Assembly (NCBI RefSeq): GCF_002554795.1
Contig: NZ_PDEQ01000007.1
Coordinates: 1 to 64,000, forward strand
Source of the DNA: Longibacter salinarum
GTDB lineage: Bacteria > Bacteroidota > Rhodothermia > Rhodothermales > Salinibacteraceae
Reading direction: 5' to 3'
DNA: 64,000 nt
The translations under genes were made by a program, and so were the position numbers. Below, one piece after another: positions 375 through 35,741 of the stretch; position 1 is the first letter of the stretch; the number at the start of each line of letters is the position of its first letter. Under the pieces are notes generated by a model that saw nothing but the letters and a program-made list of their open reading frames with translations, was not told the origin of the DNA and ran no database searches.

Positions 375-3300
375 ATGTACGACGAACCGAGCCGGTCTCG
401 ATTTACCGTATTTCTTTCATCTCTGTTTTTCATCTTGCTCGTCGTTCCGTCTGCGTGCCCGGGCGGTGGAGGAATCATCGGAACCGCAGTAGCCCAGCAC
501 GACCCGGACGATCAAGCAAAGCGACCCGTTGATGCCCTTCACGGGCTGGTCCAGCAGCGGTCGAAAGCCGCTCCGCATGTCTTGCCTGATCGTCGGGATA
601 GGCCGGCTGAAGTACAGCGACTATTACTGAGGCGAACGGCCAACCGCACTGCCGACCCGGGGATCCCGCTCGCGCTCCACAACGTCCCCGTCGAAGCCCC
701 CGTACGCCGGATCGGAGGCAAGCGGTGGCCGAACCCCGACATGAACTTCGGCTTTCCGGGCCTGCCCAGACCCGCGGGCGACGTGAACGACGATGGCATT
801 CGTGATATCCTGTACCCGCTTTGGGGCGTCGCCGATGAGCGAACGTCGACGATTTCGGACCGGACGCACAAGAGCCTCGTCAGCTTCGGGGGCCAAGCGT
901 TCGGCACACAGCTGTATGATGTCTCAAGTTTCGACGTGTTCACGTTCGTCGGTAACATCGTGGGAGGTCCGGAAGCTGATGCCATCACCACCTCCCCCCA
1001 AGAGACACCCCGCGTCTACAAAGGTGGACCGCAAGGGCACACCTATGTCGGAAGCCTCCCGAAGGACATTACGTTTGGCCGATGGAATTGGGATAGAGCC
1101 GTAGATGTGGACGGCGACGGCTACGACGATGTGATTACCACTCTCAGCTTCGCGAACACGGTCGAAATATTATACGGAGGACCGACATTTTCAGACCTTG
1201 TTATTGTCGAGTATGACCTCCCGGAGCAGATGCGCGACAATTCTTATTCGTATGCCATTGTCGACATTACAGGCGACCAAACCGCCGAAATCGTTCGTCT
1301 AGGTAAATCGGATGTATCCGGTGAGGTCGTGGAGATCGGAATCTTCGATGTCGTATCGCACCGGGGAGCTCCTCTCGCCGAAATCGAACAGTTCTTTCCC
1401 TCCGTTCCCGTGTATTCGGATGTAGATCCGAGTGACATCCCGCTGCTTTCGGCCGACATCACGGGCAGTGGTTCTCCTGAACTCCTGCTCCTAGGTAAAT
1501 CCTACCGCGGCGAGCTGAATGAAACGTACGTGTTCACACGCGACACCGGATCCTATGCTGCTGCGCCGGCCGCAGTATACCCCGAGATGGATCTGCGCCT
1601 CATTGGGGACGTGAACGACGACGGTCGACAAGACCTGGCGTACCCGAGCGGAGAGGAAACCACCGTTGCCTTTGGTCCGCGCAGCGTATCCGACGGCCTG
1701 AGCGCAAGTCATACCATTCGCGGTACCCTATCGCCTTCGATCCTCGGAGACGTTACAGGAGACGGTCGAGATGACCTACTCTACCTTGCGAACGGTTCAG
1801 AGTACCGGATCGAACGTCTCGACTTTCAGGGGACGGATCAGATACAGGACCGGCAAACGCTTGTACTCGACGAAGCAAAGCACGGAGCGTACGGCATTCG
1901 AGAGACCCAGCGCATCGGCGATGTGGACGGGGACGGAGCAGATGATTACGCCCTGATTCGCGTAGAGGGAATTGTCGATGTGTACACTGGGGATCCAGCC
2001 GTGCAAGCGTCGCCGCACCTTCGCATTACGGGGCCCGCAGCATTTCCGGCGACTCGCGATCATGCGGGGAAAACCGTTGCTGTGGGCGACTTTACCGGGG
2101 ACGGAGCGAGCGACCTGGCAATTCGATGGAACAGGAAAGATGAGTTCGTGGGTGTCTACGACCTGAGCAACGGAGGCACGAAGATCCACTCGGTCGGGCT
2201 ATCGAATCTTGGGGTGTCGAACGATGCGCCCGGGTTGCCAGACGGGACGCATGGCCCCAACGCCTCCATCGCAAACCTGGGCGACATCAATGACGACGGC
2301 GCCGACGACCTCGGCATCACGTTGCCCGATGTCGAAATCATGGATGACGACCGCGTTCACGTCTTCTTTGGTGGCTCTACGCTGTCGCCCTCGCCCGATC
2401 TAGTGGTCCGGTCGTATGCATCGGGGGTTGGGGAGCACTTCGGCCAGGTACTTCTCGGTCTCGGCGATATCAACGGCGACGGCATCGACGATTTTGCCGT
2501 TTCAGACGCCGACAGCCGCTACACCGGCATCTTGCCGCGTACAGATCTGCTGCAGAACGCATCGTTCGGTGCGTTCTTCGTGCACTATGGGACGTCGTCA
2601 CCCTCCGGTTCTTTCGACCGCGCCGACCTGACCCTCGGAATCCCTGAGACCGAGTTTCAAGATGGCAAATCCATCGTGCGCCATGGGGCAGGAGCGACAA
2701 TGGCCGCGGCCGACGTAAACGCGGACGGCCACCCTGATCTTGTCACGACCACCTACTACAACCTCGCAACCTACCCGCAAACCGGGCAGGGAGCCCTTTA
2801 TGTGTTTTACGGCGGCAGTGGATTCGATGCAACGCCGGACCAGATTGCAGCAGTACCCAGTGTCGTGGATTATTTTCCATGGGGTCCTGATGCAACGTAC
2901 ATCCTGGGAAATCTATCAACGGTGCCCGCAGTAAACGCCGGTGATGGGGACGGACTATTTCTCAGTGCCGGGCATTCTGGAGCCGGCGTGGTGTGGCAAC
3001 CCGATGCTCAGTCAACTCATACCCTAGAGGTGACGCGTGTGCTTCGTGGCCCCGATCAGTACGGCGGGCTCGGCCCATCGGGCTGGATCTTTTCTGGATC
3101 GAAAGCCGCAAAATCCGCAATCGCAGATTTTGACGGAGATGGACGGACAGAGGCAATCCTGGTTCAGCGAGCCAGCAAGGACTTTCAACACACCCCTGCC
3201 TACGTTTTCGAGTTCGGGAGCCAGATGATGTCTCCACCGACGGCCGACGCATGTGCGACAGTGCAGAACGTAACAGCACCGGACACGCAGCCCGACCTTC

Positions 3301-4259
3301 CCTTCCCCAGTCTGGGCGTCACTCTCGTCATGGGCAGAGAGACAAGCGGCCAAGGCGACGTGACTGTTTGCCGATACGACACGGAGCCTGTGGACCCGGC
3401 CCGCACGATGAACAAAATTAATCTCGCAGATTACAGCTTCTCAATTCTACAGGAGGGAGATCTTACCCTAGGCGAATTGAGCAGCGTGCGCTTCGACGCG
3501 ACGGGATTGCCCGGCCTGGACGAGCCGGGAGCCATCACAGTCTTTCAACGCCCCCTGGTCGGCACAGGTAGCTTCGGTATAATCAAGGGCAACTACGATG
3601 AGGCGGCCGGTGAGCTCGTTCGGTTCATCGACATGTTTGGCGAGTTTGCGTTCACGTCGGATGTCGACCCACTGCCGGTGGAACTGGCGAGGTTTGACGC
3701 TCACGTTGCCGGCGAAAACGTCGCGTTGACATGGCAGACGCTGTCAGAAACGGGCAATGATGGATTTGCTATCGAACGCCGAGCTGAGGAGCCACCCGGT
3801 GCAGAGAAGAACCAGGCGTGGACCCGCGTCGGATTCGTGGACGGAGCAGGCACAACGACTGCCCCCCAAGACTACCGATTCCTTGACCGCAGCGTACCGT
3901 ACGAGGCTGAGCACATCACCTACCGCCTGCGGCAGATCGACGTGGATGGCACCGAGACGGTGTCAGAACCGGTGACAGCACGATTCAATGTCCCGAACGA
4001 ACTGCGTCTGCACAAGACCGGCCCGAATCCCGTGACGAACACGATCACCGTTCGATACGAAACTCCGCAAAGCGGCGTGGTGCGCCTGTCCCTCTATAAT
4101 GTGCTGGGACAGAGGGTAAAAACAGTGCACCTCGGAAGTCCAGGGGCAGGCAGGCACCGAACGCAAATTGACGTTCGCGACCTCGCGAGCGGGACGTACT
4201 TCCTACGGATGAAGCACAAGACTGGCATGGCAACGCAACAATTCACCGTGGTCCGATGA
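375..4259 (+). CDS. Secreted FG-GAP/VCBS repeat protein with type IX sorting domain
   Basis: This is a large (1294 aa) secreted or surface protein. I chose ATG 375 over an in-frame TTG at 300 because a hydrophobic signal peptide follows (residues about 9-41, ending near AVAQ). Between about residues 135 and 920 there are some twelve calcium-loop motifs of the D-x-[ND]-x-DG-x-x-D type (GDVNDDG, DVDGDG, GDFTGDG and others). These are typical of integrin-like FG-GAP beta-propeller blades. A fibronectin-like domain starts near residue 1100 (LPVELARFDA). The last 80 residues, from GPNP to the terminal basic residue, have the form of a type IX secretion (Por) sorting domain. An adhesive or structural role is likely but the ligand cannot be told. 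It stands alone, with C-rich repeats on both sides. Confidence 0.88.
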   Translation: MYDEPSRSRFTVFLSSLFFILLVVPSACPGGGGIIGTAVAQHDPDDQAKRPVDALHGLVQQRSKAAPHVLPDRRDRPAEVQRLLLRRTANRTADPGIPLALHNVPVEAPVRRIGGKRWPNPDMNFGFPGLPRPAGDVNDDGIRDILYPLWGVADERTSTISDRTHKSLVSFGGQAFGTQLYDVSSFDVFTFVGNIVGGPEADAITTSPQETPRVYKGGPQGHTYVGSLPKDITFGRWNWDRAVDVDGDGYDDVITTLSFANTVEILYGGPTFSDLVIVEYDLPEQMRDNSYSYAIVDITGDQTAEIVRLGKSDVSGEVVEIGIFDVVSHRGAPLAEIEQFFPSVPVYSDVDPSDIPLLSADITGSGSPELLLLGKSYRGELNETYVFTRDTGSYAAAPAAVYPEMDLRLIGDVNDDGRQDLAYPSGEETTVAFGPRSVSDGLSASHTIRGTLSPSILGDVTGDGRDDLLYLANGSEYRIERLDFQGTDQIQDRQTLVLDEAKHGAYGIRETQRIGDVDGDGADDYALIRVEGIVDVYTGDPAVQASPHLRITGPAAFPATRDHAGKTVAVGDFTGDGASDLAIRWNRKDEFVGVYDLSNGGTKIHSVGLSNLGVSNDAPGLPDGTHGPNASIANLGDINDDGADDLGITLPDVEIMDDDRVHVFFGGSTLSPSPDLVVRSYASGVGEHFGQVLLGLGDINGDGIDDFAVSDADSRYTGILPRTDLLQNASFGAFFVHYGTSSPSGSFDRADLTLGIPETEFQDGKSIVRHGAGATMAAADVNADGHPDLVTTTYYNLATYPQTGQGALYVFYGGSGFDATPDQIAAVPSVVDYFPWGPDATYILGNLSTVPAVNAGDGDGLFLSAGHSGAGVVWQPDAQSTHTLEVTRVLRGPDQYGGLGPSGWIFSGSKAAKSAIADFDGDGRTEAILVQRASKDFQHTPAYVFEFGSQMMSPPTADACATVQNVTAPDTQPDLPFPSLGVTLVMGRETSGQGDVTVCRYDTEPVDPARTMNKINLADYSFSILQEGDLTLGELSSVRFDATGLPGLDEPGAITVFQRPLVGTGSFGIIKGNYDEAAGELVRFIDMFGEFAFTSDVDPLPVELARFDAHVAGENVALTWQTLSETGNDGFAIERRAEEPPGAEKNQAWTRVGFVDGAGTTTAPQDYRFLDRSVPYEAEHITYRLRQIDVDGTETVSEPVTARFNVPNELRLHKTGPNPVTNTITVRYETPQSGVVRLSLYNVLGQRVKTVHLGSPGAGRHRTQIDVRDLASGTYFLRMKHKTGMATQQFTVVR

Positions 4260-26748: not shown

Positions 26749-29151
26749 TTACTCATCCCGGAGCGTGGTCGCGGGGTTGAGGCGAGCCGCTCGGAACGCC
26801 TGTGTGCTAACCGCGAGGAGAGCGATCACAAGGCTGGCTGCACCGGCCACCACCAGCAATCCGACGCCAATGTCCGTTCGGTAGGCGTAGTAGGACAGCA
26901 ATTCATTCATGGCGAAATACGAGATTGGCAACGCGACAAAAAATGCGAGGGCAACCAGTTGGATGAATTCGCGAGAGAGCATCCCGACAACCTGTGCTGC
27001 CGTGGCGCCCATCGCCTTGCGGATGCCGATCTCTTTCGCCCGTCGCTGGACCGTGTACGTCGCCAGCCCGAACAGTCCGAGGCAGGCAATCAGAATGGCC
27101 AGCGCTGCGAACAGCGTGAACAGCCGGCTTGCCCACTGCACATCGCGGTGAACCCGATCGTACCTCTGATCGAGGAAGGTGTATTGGAAAGGCGTTCCAC
27201 CCGCGATCGCGACCCATGCATCACGGATACCGTCGAGCGCTACGGACGTATTTCCCGGAGTGAGGCGCGCGTAGATGCTCTTCGGGCGGCTGGGAGTCGA
27301 ATTCGGATGATCGAGAAGGATGGCCAACGGTTTTACTTCCTCCCGCATGGACGCGTAGTGAAAGTTTTCGACGACGCCGATGACATCGTACGTGCACAAC
27401 GTGTCGCACGACTGAAGTTGCTGCTGTAGAGGCTTATCCCACCCGTACAGGTCGACCGCCGCCTGATTGAGCACCACTGCGGTGGAATCACCTCTTCTCG
27501 CGGGGTCGAACGCGCGTCCCTTGACGATCGACATGTCCATCGACTCGATGAAGCGGGCGCCGACCTGCATGTATTTCAGCGCTTGAACGTCGTCTCCATC
27601 TCCGCCGACGGGCATGAATGAGGTCTGCGAGACGCCAGTGAACAATCCCTCTCCCATGGCGACGGATTGCACGCCTGAAACGCGCCGCAGACGCTCGACA
27701 AATACGTTTTGCTGCGCCTCCAGATCGTCGGACCGCTTGATCTCGACAACGCGCTCTTTGTCCAATCCGAGACGCTTCGACTGGATAAAGTCGAACTGGC
27801 TCTGCACAACCAGCGTCCCGATGATGAGGACGATAGAGATCGCAAACTGGAAGACCACAAGACCCTGACGCAACCGTCGCCCCTGGCCGCCCGAGGTCGT
27901 CGGACCGGACGCGCGCAGGACCGTGGACGGAGCGAAGCGCGATAGAACGAGAGCTGGATAACTGCCGGCAATGGCACCGATAACGACAGCCACGGCAATT
28001 CCTCCTGCGAGAACACCTGGACGGAGCAGACCCGATGCCGTCAGCGACGTACCCGCCAACTGATTGAAAAGAGGCAGCGTGGACATCGCGAGGAGAAAGG
28101 CTATCACCGTTGCGATCGCCGTCGTCAAAATGGCCTCACCGAGAAACTGTCCGGTAAGCTGCTCCCGCGCGGCACCGAGTGCTTTTCGCATTCCGACTTC
28201 CGTCGCGCGCTCCGTCGCACGCGCCGTCGCCAGGTTCATGAAGTTGATGCACGCGATCAACAGGACGAAGATGCCGACGAGAGCCAGCAGATACACCGTA
28301 GCGATGGAGCCGCTGGGACCAATGTTGTTGTACGGCGAATGGAGATACACGGAGGGAAGTGACTCGGCAACGAGGCGATAAACGAAGTTGTCCGACGGAT
28401 CGCCAAATCGCTCCTGAATGTCTTCCATCGCCCGGTTCTCGACAACAGCGTCGAGTTGCGCCTGGAAATCTGCCGTCGTGGCCTCATCCACGAGCCTCGC
28501 ATACGTCACATAGGCAAACCCTGTCCAGTTCTCCTTGAACACGTCGCGTATACCCTGCCGCCGAGCGACCGCTCGAAACTGAAGGTGCGATGTCTCTGGC
28601 ACGTCCGCCATCACCGCGGTCACGCGCCGAAGCCCGCCGTCCATCTGCAACGTCTCACCGACAACATCCGTCCGGTCGAACAATTCTTGCGCGGTTGTCT
28701 CGGTAAGAACGACGGCATCGACCGGATTCAGCGCCGTGCTCCGGTCTCCCTGGATCACCTCGAAGCCGCCAAATACATCGAAGAACGTCGAGTCGGACTT
28801 CAGCGTCATGCGTTCAGACAACGACATCGACCCGCGGCGAAAGATGACGCGGCTGGGACGCACCCGCACGACGGCCTCGGCCTGCGGAATGTCGCTCCGA
28901 ATCGCGGGAGCGAGCGGTGCTGGAACGCCAATGGTTTTGTTTATCGCATCGGTGATACGTGCCTCAAGAGCGACACGATGAATCCGGTCGGCTTCGGGAT
29001 GAAAATCGTCGAAGCTCATTTCCCGCTCCACCCAGAGGCCGATGAGCAGGCATGCGGCGATGCCGATGGTCAAACCCATTACGTTGATGATCGTCGGGCC
29101 GATACGCTTACGGAGACTCCGTGCGGCGATCGTCAGGTAATTGAAGAGCAT
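26749..29151 (-). CDS. MacB/FtsX-type ABC transporter permease
   Basis: This 800-aa inner-membrane protein starts at ATG 29151 (MLFNYLTIAARSLRKR). It has the MacB-like order: an N-terminal helix (about 20-42), a large periplasmic MacB_PCD domain (about 50-270), an FtsX bundle of three helices (about 275-410), a second helix and periplasmic domain (about 425-665) and a final FtsX bundle (about 670-790) containing RRAKEIGIRKAMGA. The first bundle has the matching ERATEVGMRKALGA coupling helix. No ATPase lies next to it, so it must use one encoded elsewhere. Such permeases export lipoproteins, peptides or antibiotics, or transmit force. It is divergent from DUF432-MscS across a pair of palindromes. 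Confidence 0.9.
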   Translation of the reverse strand: MLFNYLTIAARSLRKRIGPTIINVMGLTIGIAACLLIGLWVEREMSFDDFHPEADRIHRVALEARITDAINKTIGVPAPLAPAIRSDIPQAEAVVRVRPSRVIFRRGSMSLSERMTLKSDSTFFDVFGGFEVIQGDRSTALNPVDAVVLTETTAQELFDRTDVVGETLQMDGGLRRVTAVMADVPETSHLQFRAVARRQGIRDVFKENWTGFAYVTYARLVDEATTADFQAQLDAVVENRAMEDIQERFGDPSDNFVYRLVAESLPSVYLHSPYNNIGPSGSIATVYLLALVGIFVLLIACINFMNLATARATERATEVGMRKALGAAREQLTGQFLGEAILTTAIATVIAFLLAMSTLPLFNQLAGTSLTASGLLRPGVLAGGIAVAVVIGAIAGSYPALVLSRFAPSTVLRASGPTTSGGQGRRLRQGLVVFQFAISIVLIIGTLVVQSQFDFIQSKRLGLDKERVVEIKRSDDLEAQQNVFVERLRRVSGVQSVAMGEGLFTGVSQTSFMPVGGDGDDVQALKYMQVGARFIESMDMSIVKGRAFDPARRGDSTAVVLNQAAVDLYGWDKPLQQQLQSCDTLCTYDVIGVVENFHYASMREEVKPLAILLDHPNSTPSRPKSIYARLTPGNTSVALDGIRDAWVAIAGGTPFQYTFLDQRYDRVHRDVQWASRLFTLFAALAILIACLGLFGLATYTVQRRAKEIGIRKAMGATAAQVVGMLSREFIQLVALAFFVALPISYFAMNELLSYYAYRTDIGVGLLVVAGAASLVIALLAVSTQAFRAARLNPATTLRDE

Positions 29152-29280
29152 GGATCGATGCAATCGAGAAAGAAGCCGGCGAGGCAAAAGACGCTATCTG
29201 TTGATTGGTTACACAATCAGCGTTCCGCGGCGCCTACCCGAAAGGAACGGCCAAAAAGGGCGATTCCCGTCCCGCTGACC

Positions 29281-32704: not shown

Positions 32705-33769
32705 CTACCACCGGGCCGTGTACCCGCGGAAGTCGAGGTGAACGAACGGACCACGGTGCGAGGCTGGGCCATACGTTCCGAGCCCGCCGATGAACGTCCC
32801 ATCTTCGCCGGCCGCCGACTCGATGATGTCAGCCAGATACCGCGCATCCGCTTCGGTCACGCGCCCATCGCGGTTCAGGTCATCCATTCGGCCATCATTG
32901 TCTACGTCGACAAAAACGTCGGCCGCGTCACCGTAGAGGTGTCGGCTGTAAATGGTGGTGTTGCCAATGGCACGGTTGTAAAACGGCGTACGAAAACCGC
33001 TCATGACGTGAAGCGTCGCCGCGTCGTGGCCTTTCTCGCGGACGGCAGCCAGAACGTCCTCGAGGGCCTGAATGAGCTTCGTATCGAGGAGCGCGAACTC
33101 GGTCGTGCCCCCCTGCTGCTTGCAGAGAAACTGGGCCAGGCGAAAGTTGGGCGAGACCCGCACGTCGCGATTCGTCTCGGTCACACGGACAAAACCGCGA
33201 GGCCGCTCATACGTCTCCAGCCCGCCGCGGGCCTCGCTCTGGTAGCGTCCAATGCGATACCCCTCTATCGAGGTGCCCCGGTGATCCCAGGGCTTCAAGA
33301 CAAAGATATGGAGTTGCAGCGACGCATCACGTTCGGTGTCGCGCACGGTGAGGCGGGCGGTGCCGGGTTTATCCGGGGCATGGTACAGCCACTGATTCCC
33401 GAGTCCCTGCACGGCCTCGCCTGCATTCGCTGTTACCTCAACGGAGCGCGCGTTTCCGATACTCACCGGGACGGATTCTCCGGGCATCACAGACACCGCC
33501 ATGACGCGCTCGCGAATGAGGTCGTCGCCGAACCGGAGGCGAAGCGGAGATCGTGGTTCGTCCTCGTGCGCCGCGTCATCCTTCCAGGAGGCCGACAAGA
33601 CGCCGGATGAAATCACAGGAGCGGGTGCGGTCTGAGCCATCGCTTCGCCATTGGGACGGGCACGCACCTCGTCACCCAACTCGGTTACGGACACGTAGCC
33701 CGTGAGAAAGAGAAGAACGACGCTGACGAACGCAACGGCTCGGGCGGTGCCACCAGGTAGAACAGGCAT
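32705..33769 (-). CDS. DUF882/YcbK-like zinc peptidase (peptidase M15 superfamily)
   Basis: This 354-aa exported or membrane-anchored protein starts at ATG 33769 with a hydrophobic segment at about 8-30. Residues about 80-160 form a beta-rich domain. The C-terminal DUF882 domain has MSGFRTPFYNRAIG, SRHLYGDAADVFVD and FVHLDFRGY, giving the His/Asp/His zinc set of murein endopeptidases such as MepK. Between the metal motifs is a short EF-hand/dockerin-like insert (DVDNDGRMDDLNRDGR). It should cut peptidoglycan cross-links. It lies next to an L,D-transpeptidase gene that makes such links. Confidence 0.85.
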   Translation of the reverse strand: MPVLPGGTARAVAFVSVVLLFLTGYVSVTELGDEVRARPNGEAMAQTAPAPVISSGVLSASWKDDAAHEDEPRSPLRLRFGDDLIRERVMAVSVMPGESVPVSIGNARSVEVTANAGEAVQGLGNQWLYHAPDKPGTARLTVRDTERDASLQLHIFVLKPWDHRGTSIEGYRIGRYQSEARGGLETYERPRGFVRVTETNRDVRVSPNFRLAQFLCKQQGGTTEFALLDTKLIQALEDVLAAVREKGHDAATLHVMSGFRTPFYNRAIGNTTIYSRHLYGDAADVFVDVDNDGRMDDLNRDGRVTEADARYLADIIESAAGEDGTFIGGLGTYGPASHRGPFVHLDFRGYTARW

Positions 33770-33926
33770 ATGCAATCAGGGGTGCTACGGTGAAGCGGAT
33801 GCTGAACGGCGAACCCGTTGTCAATGAACGGAATCCGCAACGACCTGAATGAAAGGACAAAATACGTACCGCCTGGCAAAAGATAGCGAACGGACGGGCG
33901 ATTTCCCCGCTCGGTCTCCCACAACG

Positions 33927-35282
33927 TCAGGAGACGACCCTGCGATCCTCTAGAGCTTCGAGAAGCAACACGTCCCGACCATACACGTCGTTTCGGAAAT
34001 GAACGTCGCCATTCTCGGTCCAGGTCGTCCAGTACTGCAGATGAACCAGGACACGTTCATTCAACACCACGGCTTGCTCCGTCGTACCATCCTGCATCGC
34101 GGTGCGAATCCGCTCGGGGGTCCAGTCGGGATGATCTGCGAGCAGATAGACCGCCAACTCCGCAGGTTTCGCCACACGGATACAGCCCGAGCTAAATGTC
34201 CGCTCCGCCTGCTCGAAGAGCCCGCGCTCCGGTGTGTCATGCAGGTAAACGCTGTACGGATTCGGAAACATAAATTTGACACGACCGAGCGCATTCCACG
34301 GGCCGGGATCCTGCCGGAGTCGGTATGGAAAGTTGGACGCCGACGTTGTAGACCAGTCGATCATGGCGGGGTCAACGCGGGCAGCGTCAGCGCCCCAGCC
34401 GCGAAACACCTGAATGCGCTGCCGCGCGAGATAGCCTGGATCCCGACGGATCATCGGCAGCTTATCTTGGACAGCCAATGATTGAGGGATGTGCCAATAG
34501 GGGTTGAAGACAAGGTAGGAGATTTCGTCCGAGAAGACGGGCGTCTGGCGAAACGGCCGTCCCGTGATCACCCGCATCGACAAGACGGAGCGCCCGTCCT
34601 CGATCACGTTCAGGGAAAAGCCGGCAATGTTCACCACGACATAGCGCGATCCCAGATTGTCGGGCATCCATCGCCACCGCTCGAGGTTTATGCCAATCTG
34701 CCGCACGCGCTGATCGGCTGACACGTTCATCGCCGCTCTCGTTGTCGGGCCGATCGCCCCATCGGTGGCGAGTCCATGCCGCCTCTGGAACCGAAGAACG
34801 GCCGCCCAGAGATCATCATCAAAACGATAGACGGTCTCGGCGGTCGACGTTGCTCCCGTATCCGCCGGTGCCGTCACATTTCGTTGCGAAAACGGAGGTG
34901 CCGAAGCAACTCGCGCTCGCACCGAGTCCACCGGGATCGGCAAATCTCCGGTGATAGCCAGCCGCTCCCGAACGACAGGGACTCGCGCATCGAGCTGACC
35001 GGCCTTCAATGTCGGGCCCTCCGGAATGGTCGGCCACCCTCCATTCTGTTCGAACTGCTGGTATCGTTGAAGGGCGCTGAGCAGCGAATCGTACGGCGCG
35101 GCCGACGGCTGCACCGTGGATAGAGCGGCATCCAGATCGCCGGTTCGTTCCAGGACGCGGAAGAAGACCTGTTCGTCCCGTTTCCGCGTGGGCGCGTCCC
35201 ACAGAGGCGTCACCTCGCCCGGCGAGACGCGGCCCCATCCAAGATGGGCAGCATATCGGTACGCGGCATGCATGCACAGCAA
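33927..35282 (-). pseudogene. L,D-transpeptidase (YcbB/LdtD-type), C-terminal part after in-frame stop
   Basis: This catalytic portion follows the N-terminal part at 35334-35741 in the same reading frame, separated only by one TAG at 35334-35336. It has 451 codons from a TTG at 35282, plus 17 more back to the TAG. It contains the rest of the scaffold domain (HLGWGRVSPGEVTPLW), a peptidoglycan-binding motif (VLRFQRRHGLATDGAIGPTT) and the YkuD domain with the HDTPERGLFE and SSGCIRV motifs. The nucleophile Cys codon is 34182-34184. On its own it would lack the export signal, so activity would need readthrough. A sequencing error is the other simple explanation. Confidence 0.82.
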
Positions 35283-35333
35283 CTCGAGGTCTACGAGGCG
35301 CTGAACAGCCGTTGTATCGGTTGAATGAGCCGA

Positions 35334-35741
35334 CTATGCGAGCGACTCAATGCGATCTGCAGGATAGTCTGCAGGGGATAGTCCCTGATCATCCGCATGG
35401 CGCAGCGCCACGACGAGTTGGTCGACGATTCCCCGCGGCCCGCTGGAATCGACCCAGAGCGGGCGAAAACTCGTCTCCTCGTACCACTGCATGATCGATC
35501 TGCTTCGCGCCGCGTCCGCCGTCGGCATCGCGTCCAGGCCCTGCGCTTCGCTTTCGATACGCATCCGGACGCCATCCGCGACGAGCCGGAGCGTGGAGTC
35601 TGGCCGAGACGGCTCTTCAACAACGGAATCCGCTGCAGCAGGTGGGGCATCGGTGTCGTCTGTTGCGGACGCGCCCTCGCCCTGATTGCATCCGGCCGTC
35701 AGCAAGATGACCGCGACAAAAAACAACAATATCGATCGCAT
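35334..35741 (-). pseudogene. L,D-transpeptidase, N-terminal lipoprotein part ending at in-frame TAG
   Basis: This is a 135-aa fragment starting at ATG 35741. It has a lipoprotein signal (lipobox LTAGC), an Asp/Ala-rich linker, and the start of the YcbB scaffold domain (WYEETSFRPLWVDSSGPR, VALRHADDQGLSPADYP). The frame stops at TAG (35334-35336) and then continues without shift as SAHSTDTTAVQRLVDLE into the catalytic part. A single C-to-T change from CAG (Gln) would explain the stop. The intact gene would encode about 604 residues, normal for the family. Confidence 0.82.

Follow-up and report, generated by a model that had tools for sequence, protein, structure and literature searches.

The closest described system to the locus studied here is that of E. 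coli, in which ldtD (ycbB), encoding an L,D-transpeptidase, is followed by mepK (ycbK), a gene of the M15 family. The window, a 64,000-nucleotide stretch of the genome of the salt-loving bacterium Longibacter salinarum, likewise has an LdtD-type gene adjoining an M15 gene. The window protein, read through its stop codon, is 39% identical to E. coli LdtD over 401 amino acids; the two have three Pfam domains in identical order, and the SSGC motif is present in both. Unlike the E. coli protein, it begins with a lipoprotein signal and is interrupted by a TAG codon in its Scaffold domain. The nearest solved structures are also YcbB-type transpeptidases (6ntw, 7kgm, 7kgn, and 7aj9).

A second point of comparison is a survey reporting that in-frame stops in genes with dN/dS below 1 are widespread in bacteria, which its authors took as a sign of frequent readthrough, and that such stops persist mostly for short times (PMC7918605). 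Those cases and the window gene are alike in having a single in-frame stop in a gene that is otherwise constrained. They differ in that the stops analyzed in the survey were common to at least two species, whereas the window TAG is found in no other species.

The interrupted gene is encoded on the minus strand, from 35741 down to 33927, a detail missing from the preliminary description, and comprises 604 codons, the first an ATG, followed by TGA. Codon 136 is the in-frame TAG (35334 to 35336; CTA on the plus strand). Minus-strand translation of 33927 to 35741 gives 135 residues from the ATG, the TAG, another 468 residues, and the TGA, with no further stops. The 135-codon head (35337 to 35741) carries the first third of the Scaffold domain and an N-terminus, MRSILLFFVAVILLTAGC, that by its look is a lipoprotein signal with the lipobox LTAGC. 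The 468 open codons of the tail (33930 to 35333) hold the rest of the Scaffold domain, PG_binding_1, and YkuD with the SSGC motif, and have no signal peptide of their own. In the read-through protein, Pfam places Scaffold (PF20142) at residues 83 to 224, PG_binding_1 (PF01471) at 306 to 338, and YkuD (PF03734) at 366 to 533, and the Scaffold profile is matched in successive stretches on the two sides of the TAG (profile positions 3 to 50 before it and 59 to 139 after it). Translation and Pfam thus agree with what had been described at the outset, namely an amber codon splitting an L,D-transpeptidase gene whose frame is intact on either side and whose Scaffold domain carries on past the stop into YkuD. 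A search of the organism's own genome likewise returned a transpeptidase match running the full length of the gene with one TAG inside it. The possibility that the tail is a chance open frame can be dismissed because the congener and family homologs align both upstream and downstream of the TAG.

All three Pfam families scored above their cut-offs on the read-through sequence, and the catalytic SxGC motif of YkuD, FSSGCIRV in the window, aligns with SSGCVRV of E. coli. The score against the NCBIfam LdtD equivalog model (NF007891) was 330.5 bits, compared with a cut-off of 425. Judged from these matches, the predicted window protein is a homolog of LdtD and not a named equivalog of the enterobacterial enzyme.

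If the TAG is read as a stop, ribosomes would halt at codon 136 and release a 135-residue lipoprotein stub lacking the catalytic domain. In-frame internal starts occur about 50 to 60 bases past the TAG, at a TTG (35282) and an ATG (35273), and a product restarted at either would lack the signal peptide and be expected to stay in the cytoplasm. These same starts are what could be cited for a split of the gene into two functional proteins, the lipoprotein stub and a catalytic protein with a start of its own. We find this barely credible because the break cuts through a single Pfam domain, there is no export signal at the internal starts of the tail, and the split arrangement occurs in no relative apart from a doubtful frameshift in a metagenome-assembled genome (MAG), discussed below.

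In the family survey, the transpeptidase gene was present in 12 genomes and absent from 15 of the 27, and in 10 of the 12 the frame is open over 587 to 723 codons. The intact family orthologs (for example, G017, G018, G019, and G023) form one orthologous clade with the window gene (support, 99/95), have a similar length and the same kinds of domains, and are about 60% identical to it in the C-terminal half; they differ from it in lacking an in-frame stop. Relative to these open orthologs, the window gene has one disrupting lesion, the TAG. Most of them have an adjacent M15 gene, as at the window locus, with an orientation that varies from one ortholog to another. While some of the 15 absences come from incomplete genomes, others come from near-complete ones, and the gene is therefore dispensable in the family.

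The TAG itself falls in a linker of variable length within the Scaffold domain. When the codon was compared across relatives, the residues at this column were R, E, S, A, H, L, T, K, D, or N in the alignment rows shown; these rows, in which the genus is represented by one congener only, contain no stop at the column and also no Gln. The preliminary description had attributed the stop to a single CAG-to-TAG change. Since the column is variable and Gln was not seen there, a CAG ancestor cannot be claimed.

A single substitution would suffice to make a TAG, and the true codon could in principle be a sense codon hidden by a sequencing or assembly error or by a minority variant of the culture that was sequenced. 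MiSeq reads at a depth of 179x contain few substitution errors. The draft genome of L. salinarum KCTC 52045 (4,406,485 bp in 22 contigs; N50, 433,789 bp) was assembled with SPAdes from MiSeq (Illumina) data at 179x coverage (PMC6856283), which makes sequencing error unlikely as the source of the TAG. In addition, comparison with the congener gave no sign of interruption in any other conserved window gene; a few congener open reading frames match the window in two pieces, and these are overlapping or antisense frames in the 54- to 62-kb stretch. Taking error and culture variant together, we regard this explanation as very improbable.

The sole other genome of the genus in our comparison, the GSL.Bin3 MAG, has a syntenic transpeptidase gene with the same neighbors. 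Its codon at the TAG column encodes an amino acid, and the reading frame is shifted about 20 codons later within the same domain. The two lesions are thus different, and we rejected a disruption inherited from a shared ancestor. The frameshift and the TAG could still be independent losses under relaxed selection, as would be expected if the gene were decaying throughout the genus. Beyond the frameshift in the syntenic gene, such decay would fit the conserved Scaffold columns, which deviate in 5/24 and 4/24 cases in the window/congener pair and in 0 to 3 of 22 to 23 in others (the pair exceeds most family members), as well as the greater likeness of the paralog pair in the two genomes, whose end branches in the tree measure 0.30 and 0.26, compared with 0.46 and 0.37 for the window and congener transpeptidases. 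However, conservation in the catalytic domain is normal in both the window and the congener copies, and the MAG is an assembly of 390 contigs, with a coverage of 3.1 in the contig title. In the window (26752 to 29193), an intact gene encodes a MacB/FtsX-like permease; its counterpart in the congener MAG (L116, G001:C175, approximately 1267 to 3668) has two frameshifts. Because this gene is split twice on the same contig as the transpeptidase, the frameshift in the latter is doubtful and likely an assembly error, and with at least two more frameshifts nearby in this conserved gene, we gave it less weight as evidence of decay. On balance, decay throughout the genus seems unlikely, even if it deserves more weight than any other alternative to a recent mutation in L. 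salinarum.

What the sequence past the TAG has experienced bears on both the age of the lesion and the possibility that the tail is still made. Differences between the window and the congener past the TAG amount to 0.27/0.21/0.54 at codon positions 1/2/3, and in the same comparison, the M15 neighbor gives 0.24/0.16/0.59. At the family-conserved columns past the TAG, the window alone deviates at 10/180 and the congener alone at 9/180, and the end branches of the two copies in the tree are 0.46 and 0.37. The window copy shows no acceleration, then, and the sequence of its tail still looks constrained. Almost all of the divergence between window and congener is older than any recent mutation, and with about 60% protein identity, this one congener is too distant for dating the TAG. 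For this reason, a young lesion and a tail that is still translated are not told apart by these figures: the lack of rate acceleration or of extra lesions is expected for either one, and constraint on the tail is also what leaky readthrough would leave.

We therefore asked whether the organism has the means to read TAG. Release factor RF1 is present in its own genome with a score above the model cut-off, and TAG ends 9 of the 47 gene-like open reading frames in the window (a rough set that perhaps includes a few false ones); a change of the genetic code across the organism was rejected on these two counts. Pyrrolysine insertion was rejected as well, since the pyrrolysyl-tRNA synthetase model (PylS) gave a match of 28 bits, well below its cut-off of 178. 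A suppressor tRNA had been suggested as something to look for, and the search found none: no CUA anticodon occurs among the 47 tRNA genes (Rfam tRNA loci in the assembled contigs, read by ARAGORN), and the pattern TCTA...GTTCRANNC gave 78 matches in comparison with 64 for the reversed control. As tRNA-Ala(TGC) and tRNA-Ile(GAT) were also unseen among the 47, some tRNA genes must lie in assembly gaps, perhaps within rRNA operons. RNA structure downstream of the TAG was no stronger than in shuffled sequences (z-scores of −0.48, −0.43, and −1.06 for pseudoknot-free folds), and a scan for promoters and terminators gave chance-level results. Nothing in this set of results speaks for programmed readthrough: tRNA-CUA is missing from the tRNA genes found, PylS is under the cut-off, RF1 is present, TAG is used in the ordinary way, the RNA beyond it folds unremarkably, and none of the aligned relatives has a stop at this column.

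Termination could also be leaky without being programmed. In this case, a near-cognate tRNA would read the TAG often enough for some full-length enzyme to reach the envelope, so that expression would be lowered and not abolished. The constrained, unaccelerated tail fits this idea, as does the reading of many bacterial in-frame stops as sites of frequent readthrough (PMC7918605). Yet a young mutation predicts the constraint equally well, the stop is retained in no relative, no CUA tRNA was found, RF1 is present, downstream folding is no better than in shuffles (z of −0.4 to −1.1), and the survey itself finds such stops to be mostly short-lived. Leaky termination is accordingly quite improbable in our judgment. 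There is a slimmer chance still that the amber codon has become a tolerated attenuator, passing a near-cognate trickle of full-length enzyme with no suppressor tRNA while selection keeps the catalytic tail. If readthrough were shown here, the gene would be a test case for the idea that many in-frame stops in bacteria act as leaky attenuators.

The explanation we prefer is that, of the two LdtD-type L,D-transpeptidases of L. salinarum, one has probably been inactivated by a recent nonsense mutation. Three readings had been offered originally (recent pseudogene, error, or programmed readthrough), and the first is best supported, by the full-length relatives, the single lesion, the unaccelerated rate, the intact paralog, and the patchy presence of the gene; error is unlikely at 179x, and readthrough is unsupported. 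We infer that functional protein is absent, that the mutation is both recent and real, and that the paralog covers the function. This paralog is an intact second LdtD-type gene in the same genome, with an open frame of 638 codons (C10:89101-90615), followed by an M15 gene of its own (C10:90899-91786); the pair, a diverged second version of the window module, spans C10:89101-91786, and the congener carries the same pair on contig C245. This second pair forms a clade in the tree separate from that of the window gene and so is no recent copy. The loss would be tolerable because this intact paralog remains beside its M15 peptidase and because the family dispenses with the gene. The genome also has three further YkuD genes in addition to both LdtD-type copies. 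A change in wall chemistry, raised in the preliminary description as a consequence of loss, is possible, but with the paralog and three more YkuD genes still in place, its extent may be small. The case has the look of a commonplace, recent loss of a gene and does not look like a novel way of decoding. Outside annotation it is of little consequence, although it serves as a clear example of a loss by one lesion within a pair of duplicated transpeptidase/M15-peptidase modules.

The M15-family peptidase gene beside the interrupted transpeptidase (32705 to 33775, minus strand) is intact, with 356 codons plus a stop, and directly follows the transpeptidase gene on that strand; the two are neighbors in relatives too. 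It had been proposed that this peptidase could cut the cross-links that the transpeptidase makes. The assignment to the M15 peptidases stands (PF08291, above cut-off), while membership in the MepK family does not: the window protein scores 21.1 bits against PF05951, under the cut-off of 27 and far from the 206 bits of MepK itself, and BLASTP gives no significant match between it and MepK. Its presumed ability to cleave 3-3 cross-links is guesswork based on gene neighborhood. Across 41 genomes, 13 have both an LdtD-type and an M15 gene (a count that includes G033, where the M15 match is weak), 2 have the transpeptidase alone, 1 has the M15 gene alone, and 25 have neither (Fisher p ~8e-8, with the 41 genomes treated as independent and kinship ignored). 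This co-occurrence suggests that in halophilic Rhodothermales, the LdtD-type enzyme and the adjacent M15 peptidase act on the same cross-links.

Two smaller observations concern the surroundings of the gene. LdtD-type and M15 genes are adjacent in most halophilic relatives with a changing orientation, being convergent in G018 and on the same strand in G017. Upstream of the window transpeptidase and divergent from it lies a gene for a chloramphenicol-acetyltransferase-family protein (PF00302; 35881 to 36639, plus strand), which served as a marker of synteny with the congener, where the protein is 81% identical.
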